DNA of 54,716 nt from Myxococcaceae bacterium (GTDB taxonomy: Bacteria > Myxococcota > Myxococcia > Myxococcales > Myxococcaceae): contig JADCJJ010000075.1 of NCBI GenBank assembly GCA_020247085.1, positions 1-54,716 of the forward strand, given 5' to 3'. The notes beneath the pieces were generated by a model. The model saw only the letters and a program-made list of their open reading frames with translations. It was not told the origin of the DNA and ran no database searches. Shown here in pieces: positions 33,368 to 36,025 of the stretch (position 1 is its first letter; each line of letters opens with the position of its first letter). Both the position numbers and the translations under genes were made by a program.

Positions 33368-33419
33368 GGGGCCGCAACGGGTGGCCCAACGGCCCGAAAA
33401 CCCGGTAAGGGGCATGGCC

Positions 33420-35054
33420 GTGACGGCACAGAGCCATGAAGCGCGCCGCGCCGAGCTGGTCCGACGGCTCACCGAGCTGGCGCCGAAGAAGAAGCTCGAC
33501 GCGATGCTCGAAGAGGTCGACGGCCGGGCGTTGGTGCGGAGCATCTCCGCCGAAGAGGTGTACTCGGCCATCATCGACGTCGGGCTGGCGGACTCGACCG
33601 AGATCGTCCAGCTGGCGACGCCCGAGCAGTTCCGCGCCTGGGTCGACCTGGCCGCCTGGCAGAAGGACCGCGTCGACGTGCTCGAGGTGCTGCACTGGCT
33701 TCGGGCGGCGCGCGGCGACGACGACGCCGACTTCCTGGCCAAGCTCCAGAAGCTCGACCTCGAGCTCGTCGAGCTGCTCTTCAAGCGGCTGACCCGCATT
33801 CACGATCTGCAAGAGGACCCGGACGTCGACACCGAGGGCGTGCCCGTCGAGACGCCCGAGGGCAAGTTCCTCGTCGAGGTGGTGGCCGAGGGGGTCGACG
33901 AGCACGCGATGCGCCAGCTGGTGAAGGACTTCATGGCGCACAACCCCTTCGAGCTGACGCGCTTCCTCGAGGCCGTACGTTGGGAGCTGCCGACGGAGCT
34001 CGAGGAGACGGCGTTTCAGTTCCGCCAGGCGCGGCTGCAGGACCTGGGCTTCCCCCCGCTCGAGGACGCGCTCAAGGTCTTCGCCTGGAGGGACCCCGAC
34101 AAGGTGACGGTGAGGCCCGCAGCGCCGGGGCTCTCCCGGCCGGGGGAGCGCATCGACTACGTGGCGGCGACGTTCCGGGGGCTCGACGAGGTCGAGCGGC
34201 AGAACCTCGAGGGCGAGGTGCGTTACCTCGTCAACTGCGTGCTGGTGGCCGAGGGGGCCGAGCCGGGCGATCCGCCGGCGCTCCGGAGGCTCAGCGAGCA
34301 GGCGCGGGACACGCTCGAGCTGGGCCTCGAGCTGCTCACCGGGGGCGACCCCGACGGGGCGCCCGAGGTGGTGCGCCAGCGGACGCTCAAGGAGATCTTC
34401 CAGCTCGGCTTCTCGCTCACGCTGAAGGTGAAGCGGCAGGTCGAGCAGCTGTCGCGGGAGCCCGGCAGCCGCTTCGCCGACACCTGGCTGGCGCTGGACG
34501 AGGAGACGGCAGCGCTGCAGGCGCTCCTGCGCCGCCGGCCGCTCAAGGCGCTGAAGGTGCCAGGGGCCGAGCCGGTGACGTTCCGCTCTCGCAAGGAGCT
34601 GGCCGAGGTCGACGGGCTGCTGGCGCGGGTCAGGCACCAGCGGGCGGTCTTCACGGCGCTCCTGGGGCCCTCGCCGGCCGAGGTCATCGCCCGCTTCGGC
34701 GCCAAGCTGTCGGAGCTGACGCCGCAGCGGCTCCTGCTCGCCGTGGTGGCCCGCGCCGAGCTCGACGGCGTCGTCGATGTCGCGCCCTTTCCCGAGCTGC
34801 GGGTGCAGGAGCTCGTGACGCGGCTCTTCGACGAGCAGAATCGGCAGGCGGTGCTGCGGCCGTCGGCGGGCGCCCGGGCCGTCGAGGCGCTCTCGACGAC
34901 GCTGGTCGAGGGCCGCGCCGAGGTCGAGGCGATGGTAGCGCGGGTGCTGGCGGTGCTGCTCGACGACGTCGGGCGCCGGTGGGTCGACGAGGGGCGCGTC
35001 GACCCGAAGCAGGTGGTGGCGCTGCTCATCGCCGGCCAGCCCGTCATCGGATGA
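33420..35054 (+). CDS. DUF6178-family protein
   Basis: The 544-residue protein is read from GTG 33420, because AAGGGG (33407-33412) lies seven bases upstream; ATG 33414 is too close to that site, and GTG 33381 has none. It begins MTAQSHEARRAELVRRLTEL. The helical core contains the family's recurrent stretches (ALVRSISAEEVYSAIIDVGL, DVLEVLHWLRAARGDDD, HNPFELTRFLEAVRWELP). It is soluble, has no signal peptide and is Leu/Glu/Arg-rich throughout. DUF6178 has no known role; I recall it mainly from Myxococcota and Desulfobacterota genomes. Its stop overlaps the start of the next gene (ATGA), so the two are coupled. Confidence 0.8.
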   Translation: MTAQSHEARRAELVRRLTELAPKKKLDAMLEEVDGRALVRSISAEEVYSAIIDVGLADSTEIVQLATPEQFRAWVDLAAWQKDRVDVLEVLHWLRAARGDDDADFLAKLQKLDLELVELLFKRLTRIHDLQEDPDVDTEGVPVETPEGKFLVEVVAEGVDEHAMRQLVKDFMAHNPFELTRFLEAVRWELPTELEETAFQFRQARLQDLGFPPLEDALKVFAWRDPDKVTVRPAAPGLSRPGERIDYVAATFRGLDEVERQNLEGEVRYLVNCVLVAEGAEPGDPPALRRLSEQARDTLELGLELLTGGDPDGAPEVVRQRTLKEIFQLGFSLTLKVKRQVEQLSREPGSRFADTWLALDEETAALQALLRRRPLKALKVPGAEPVTFRSRKELAEVDGLLARVRHQRAVFTALLGPSPAEVIARFGAKLSELTPQRLLLAVVARAELDGVVDVAPFPELRVQELVTRLFDEQNRQAVLRPSAGARAVEALSTTLVEGRAEVEAMVARVLAVLLDDVGRRWVDEGRVDPKQVVALLIAGQPVIG

Positions 35055-36025
35055 CGACGCGGGTCTGGAGCCTGCCGGGGTGGGGCGACCTCGAGCCCGG
35101 GCACTGGCTGACGGCCTGGGAGCGCCTCGACGAGAACGTCGTGAGGGTCGCGCCGCCGCCTGTGGCGGCGCTCGAGGCGTGGCTCGAGCGCCTCGATGCG
35201 TGTCTGGCTCCGGGAGTGCCTTGCGTCTTGGTGGGGTACGGGCCGGGCGCGCTCCTGGCCGTCCACGCGGCGGCGCGCCCCGCGGCGCGCGCGGTGGTGG
35301 GGGCGCTGCTGGTCGCGCCATCGGAAGGCGCTCGGCCCGGGGCCGGGGCGCCGATGCCGCTGGCGCCGCTGCCCTTCCCGTCGGTGCTGGTGCACGCGGT
35401 GGACGATGCGCGCTTGCCGGTGACGCGGGCCGAGGCCTGGGCGCAGGCCTTCGGGAGCGAGCGGGTCGAGCTGCCCGAGGGCGGCTGCCTCGACGCCGCG
35501 GCTGGGCTGGGCACGTGGCCCGCGGGCTTCGAGCGGCTGCGCCAGTTGCGGGCGCGCGCGCCGTTTCGGCCCTCGCCGCGCCTCGAGACCGACTCCGAGC
35601 TCATCGCCCAGGGGCCGCTGTCTCAGCTGCGGCTGATGGACGAGGCGAGGTACCCGTGGGCGCTCCTGGTGCCGAGGGTGAGCGCCGCGGAGGACGCGCG
35701 ACACCTGACGGCAAACCAGCGTCTACAGCTCGAGGCCGAGACGCACGCGGTGTCTGACGCGCTGGCGCGGGCCTTCGGCGTCGACAAGGTGAACGTGGCG
35801 TCGCTGGGCAACGTGGTGCGGCAGCTGCACGTGCATGTCGTGGGGCGGTCCCTGGGCGACGCGGCCTGGCCGGGGCCCGTCTGGGGGCACTCACCCCGGG
35901 TGTCCGCCAGCCCGGCGCTCGCGGCCCAGCGGCGGGGCCGGCTCCTCGAGGCGCTCGGCGAGAGTGGTGGCTTCACGGCCGTCGCGCCAGCCGCAGGCCG
36001 GGCTGAAGGGCGTCGCCAGAGGTGA
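35051..36025 (+). CDS. RBBP9/YdeN-like alpha/beta hydrolase (degenerate) fused to a HIT domain
   Basis: The 324-residue protein starts at the ATG overlapping the DUF6178 stop. Residues 1-170 follow the RBBP9/YdeN serine-hydrolase plan: LPGWGDLEPGHWLTAWERL, the nucleophile elbow, an Asp pair at 118-119 (AVDDARLPV), and GLGTWPAGFERLRQL. The elbow reads GYGPG (62-66), so the Ser is Gly64. The usual GGHxN box reads GGCLD, so the His is Cys146. That domain should not hydrolyse esters. Residues 175-290 are a HIT domain of the Ap4A-hydrolase/FHIT sort: LMDEARYPWALLVPR, DKVNVASLGNVVRQLHVHVV and AAWPGPVWG. The nucleotide-site histidines His260 and His262 are kept; the outer one is Gln258, as in several subfamilies. 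The fusion is unusual. Confidence 0.85.
   Translation: MTTRVWSLPGWGDLEPGHWLTAWERLDENVVRVAPPPVAALEAWLERLDACLAPGVPCVLVGYGPGALLAVHAAARPAARAVVGALLVAPSEGARPGAGAPMPLAPLPFPSVLVHAVDDARLPVTRAEAWAQAFGSERVELPEGGCLDAAAGLGTWPAGFERLRQLRARAPFRPSPRLETDSELIAQGPLSQLRLMDEARYPWALLVPRVSAAEDARHLTANQRLQLEAETHAVSDALARAFGVDKVNVASLGNVVRQLHVHVVGRSLGDAAWPGPVWGHSPRVSASPALAAQRRGRLLEALGESGGFTAVAPAAGRAEGRRQR

Follow-up and report, generated by a model that had tools for sequence, protein, structure and literature searches.

The window, a 54,716-nucleotide stretch of Myxococcaceae DNA, encodes a protein in which an RBBP9-like serine hydrolase domain is joined to a HIT domain. We consider it probable that this protein descends from a two-enzyme ancestor whose esterase half is losing catalysis and whose HIT half has been kept as a working enzyme. 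The gene, its parts, and its upstream neighbor are as follows.

35051..36025, + strand: fused RBBP9-like and HIT protein, 324 amino acids (open reading frame and Pfam).
35072..35542, + strand: PF06821 Ser_hydrolase (RBBP9/YdeN/DUF1234) domain, residues 8–164, lacking the catalytic Ser and His (Pfam and alignment).
35234..35248, + strand: degenerate nucleophile elbow GYGPG, residues 62–66, GHSLG in relatives (alignment).
35402..35407, + strand: Asp118-Asp119, Asp119 being the retained triad Asp (alignment).
35480..35494, + strand: degenerate His box GGCLD, residues 144–148, xGHVN in relatives (alignment).
35582..35848, + strand: PF01230 HIT domain, residues 178–266 (Pfam).
35822..35836, + strand: HIT active-site motif Q258-L-H260-V-H262, with His260 at the nucleophile position by motif alignment.
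33381..35054, + strand: upstream DUF6178 gene (PF19676), translationally coupled to the fused gene.

Pfam matched the N-terminal half to PF06821 (E 2.9e-26; 92.9 bits against a cut-off of 22) and the C-terminal half to PF01230 (E 7.2e-11; 43 bits against a cut-off of 21.5), and an NCBIfam search of the fused protein returned no model. Together with the GYGPG and GGCLD motifs, these matches bear out a preliminary description of this DNA, which had reported an RBBP9-like half devoid of Ser and His fused to HIT. Its account of the locus is likewise seen in the window: gene order is engB, DUF6178, fused gene, and the start of the fused reading frame overlaps the stop of the DUF6178 gene as ATGA. 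The C-terminal tail (35903–36022) is approximately 12 residues longer than in relatives, and its third-position GC is 0.825 vs about 0.92–0.94.

In the alignment, the elbow (G62, Y63, G64, P65, G66) carries Gly64 in place of the Ser nucleophile of GxSxG, and it also lacks the His63 and Leu65 of relatives. The His box (G144, G145, C146, L147, D148) has Cys146 where GHxN has its catalytic His. Asp119 aligns with the invariant catalytic Asp. This retained Asp and the Cys at the His position are what could be cited for continued catalysis by the N-terminal half, with replacement residues such as Cys146 or Tyr63 taking part; we find this very improbable, as an elbow with Gly64 offers no nucleophile, Cys146 sits at the His rather than the nucleophile position, and the other two elbow residues have changed as well. 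Sequencing or assembly error is a hardly credible source of the changes. The draft genome is fragmented (641 contigs), but compared with relatives at the codon level both motifs differ by several in-frame substitutions with no frameshift, the frame is open, 31 lineage-specific changes are spread over the N-terminal half, and the flanking genes align well.

The HIT half presents a different state. Gln258, His260, and His262 are invariant across 33 aligned HIT rows; the two His residues are present as first described, and the motif reads Q-x-H-x-H. Because Gln258 is the norm in the Q-x-H-x-H subfamily, the motif lacks no residue, and by subfamily standards the HIT half is intact in sequence.

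We generated an AlphaFold model from a 33-row alignment, only four rows of which include the N-terminal half (mean pLDDT 85.8, pTM 0.85). Using Foldseek, the HIT half of the model superimposes on 3NRD (TMt 0.93, rmsd 1.0), and the N-terminal half matches 3BDV over 171 columns (TMt 0.74, 5.5e-11), with weaker matches to YdeN (1UXO) and RBBP9. The N-terminal half is thus predicted to keep the alpha/beta hydrolase fold, with a pocket modeled at low confidence: pLDDT falls to about 50–63 at residues 11–20 and 141–160, the old active-site loops. It resembles PF06821 proteins (RBBP9, Bacillus subtilis YdeN, DUF1234; 3BDV, 1UXO, 2QS9) in fold, in sequence (3BDV, 1.1e-19), and in Asp119. Unlike them, it has undergone Ser-to-Gly and His-to-Cys replacement, has a six-to-eight-residue gap before the LPFPS strand, and is followed by a C-terminal HIT domain. 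The HIT half is about 40–55% identical to the proteobacterial Q-x-H-x-H proteins (3NRD SMc02904, 3I4S blr8122, 3OHE, 3I24), with which it has the motif and a WPGPVW signature in common; those proteins are standalone, whereas the HIT domain of the window's protein lies C-terminal to another domain.

Comparison with fused orthologues sets the double loss in context. The nearest relative, L002 (65% identical), has GHSLG and GHVN, with Ser64, Asp119, and His146 all present, and the three residues are also intact in L003, L004 (as AHSLG), L005 (= L017), L008 (= L019), and L016. Two further fused proteins, L006 and L007 (= L018), have a GHGLG elbow in which Gly replaces Ser while His is retained. 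Only in the window's protein, among fused proteins, are both Ser and His altered. Double inactivation therefore fails as the defining trait of this architecture, as L002 and four other lineages keep Ser64, Asp119, and His146. The preliminary description had itself reasoned that homologues with intact Ser and His would point to recent decay, and the fused orthologues are such homologues. What stands of its distinct inactivated build is a real, narrow fusion, most members of which keep Ser, Asp, and His; the joint loss is specific to a single lineage, and the fusion otherwise looks ordinary. In G006, a draft genome, DUF6178 and the fused gene each occur in two copies, L007 (C79) and L016 (C24). 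One fused copy is Ser-less; the other is intact and almost the same as the copy of another genome (L008/L019). The pair reflects either assembly contamination or a true duplication.

Among standalone Myxococcota relatives, Ser occupies the elbow in 20/20 with a readable elbow, which suggests that Ser is the ancestral state and gives the putative direction of change; His is kept in the same 20 and in two partial relatives. In the tree, the window's protein groups with L002, and L018 groups with L019/L016, so three Ser-to-Gly events are the simplest account, and the replacement apparently arose three times independently.

We compared how fast the two halves have changed. Taking L003 as the outgroup in a relative-rate count, the N-terminal half of the window's protein has accumulated 31 private changes vs 11 in L002 (p = 0.003), and the HIT half 4 vs 11. 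Other outgroups agree on this asymmetry, and the contrast between halves gives Fisher p = 0.002–0.04 depending on the outgroup. End branches tell the same story, at 0.68 vs 0.20 for the sister in the N-half tree (support 95/94) and 0.21 vs 0.14 in the HIT-half tree. Of the positions that do not vary among the other eight fused rows, the window's protein has changed 14/54 in the N-terminal half and 2/45 in the HIT half. Among the former are Gly15, Gln20, Trp36, Pro39, and Leu162, all distant from the triad along the chain; in addition, short deletions preceding the LPFPS strand have removed six to eight residues. These comparisons indicate that relaxed constraint is confined to the N-terminal half of the window's protein. 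L018 measured against its intact sister also shows a faster N-terminal half, a difference in the same direction that is not significant (p about 0.15), and L006 has no close intact sister for such a comparison.

Some observations count against decay: the N-terminal half contains no stop or frameshift and its pairwise dN/dS against the sister is below 1 (0.33/0.63), hence it is not simply dead sequence. Given these dN/dS values and normal codon-position composition, it appears to be still translated and under some remaining constraint, as expected if this half must fold and not harm the neighboring domain.

The same features could be read as repurposing, in which the N-terminal half has come to serve the HIT enzyme in binding, dimerization, or regulation and its loss of catalysis was adaptive. 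We regard this as possible but unlikely. The fold is kept and the reading frame is intact, and Ser has given way to Gly apparently three times, only in fused proteins (3/9 rows, vs 0/20 readable standalone relatives; hypergeometric p about 0.02, uncorrected for kinship). That all three losses ended in the same residue may be a sign that a non-catalytic role was selected for. However, change in the N-terminal half is fast and scattered, residues have been deleted in short stretches, and invariant Gly, Trp, and Gln positions remote from the triad have been lost; the three Ser-less proteins have no new conserved motif in common; and the active-site loops are those modeled with low confidence. A more elaborate version, in which the hydrolase half of the fused protein has repeatedly (three times) and adaptively become a pseudoenzyme through Ser-to-Gly replacement, now controlling an adenylyl-hydrolyzing HIT domain as its scaffold or ligand sensor, seems to us quite unlikely. 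The binding or regulatory module first proposed for this half is accordingly weakened: given that the half outpaces its sister in change and that 14 of its 54 invariant positions are gone, relaxed constraint explains it no less well than a new conserved function would, and decay accounts for the data no worse than a new regulatory role does.

Under the decay reading, the ancestor would have been an active RBBP9/YdeN-type serine hydrolase joined to a HIT nucleotide hydrolase or transferase. The window's lineage, and two others for Ser only, would then have lost catalysis in the serine-hydrolase half, with relaxed constraint on it, while the HIT half would have stayed under selection. Loss of activity in the N-terminal half is what its sequence suggests.

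The fusion has a narrow distribution. Searches took in 60 genomes of relatives, 147 of the class, and 195 of the phylum Myxococcota. The full fusion occurs in 7/7 genomes of the window's genus and in G021, from a second genus of the family, and none was found elsewhere among the 195 Myxococcota genomes. The HIT half has matches in 9 of the family's 96 genomes, eight being the fusion and one a weak match (5e-4). Fusions outside Myxococcota were sought only among 80 genome-contig loci, three of which are fused, all myxobacterial; in all 77 non-myxobacterial loci, labeled in their record titles as alphaproteobacterial, gammaproteobacterial, or, in a few cases, from other bacteria, the HIT protein stands alone with no N-terminal half. 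Standalone RBBP9-like domains are present in other myxobacteria, and a plausible origin is that a HIT gene acquired from elsewhere became joined to a native RBBP9-like domain. A literature search found no papers on RBBP9-HIT proteins or on DUF6178, in agreement with the earlier statement that no protein of this build had been described, and the fusion is apparently an undescribed domain combination.

Adjacency of DUF6178 and the fused gene is kept in 7/7 genomes of the genus. Neither the fused gene nor either half follows DUF6178 in the flanks examined from the family's other genera, so the coupling is peculiar to the window's genus. Within the window's genome, a search for an intact PF06821 paralogue as compensation found none, and another HIT protein (C332) has a stronger PF01230 score.

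Genomic neighbors offer leads to the chemistry of the HIT half. In 44/77 loci, nudC is the gene immediately downstream of the standalone HIT gene (for example, L029:4439-5377); all 44 are Hyphomicrobiales-type records, mostly from related rhizobia and thus not independent. In G021 (L006:1528-3934, - strand), the fused gene is located away from DUF6178 and directly follows a SelO gene, which stands in DUF6178's place with a gap of about 7 bases; the SelO gene of the window's genome lies elsewhere. NudC is an NADH pyrophosphatase and SelO a protein AMPylator (protein adenylyltransferase), and these neighbors hint at AMP turnover. In HIT proteins the middle His acts as the nucleophile on adenylyl bonds. 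HinT/HINT1 (canonical H-x-H-x-H) belongs to the same superfamily and has the nucleophilic middle His of the window's protein, whose motif differs in starting with Gln instead of His and marks a separate subfamily. No function was found for the subfamily of 3NRD and 3I4S, although structures are solved. The HIT half is probably an adenylyl hydrolase, cleaving AMP-ester or phosphoramidate bonds, and the N-terminal half was probably once an esterase in the same process. HinT binds AMP and AMPylated proteins (PMC12375108).

The recurrent place of this HIT subfamily beside NudC, and once after SelO, constitutes a testable functional lead. The fused orthologues also provide a small, closed set in which one domain is intact, lacks one catalytic residue, or lacks two, with no change in the domain attached to it, a series suited to asking whether a pseudoenzyme half is retained for a reason or is merely decaying.
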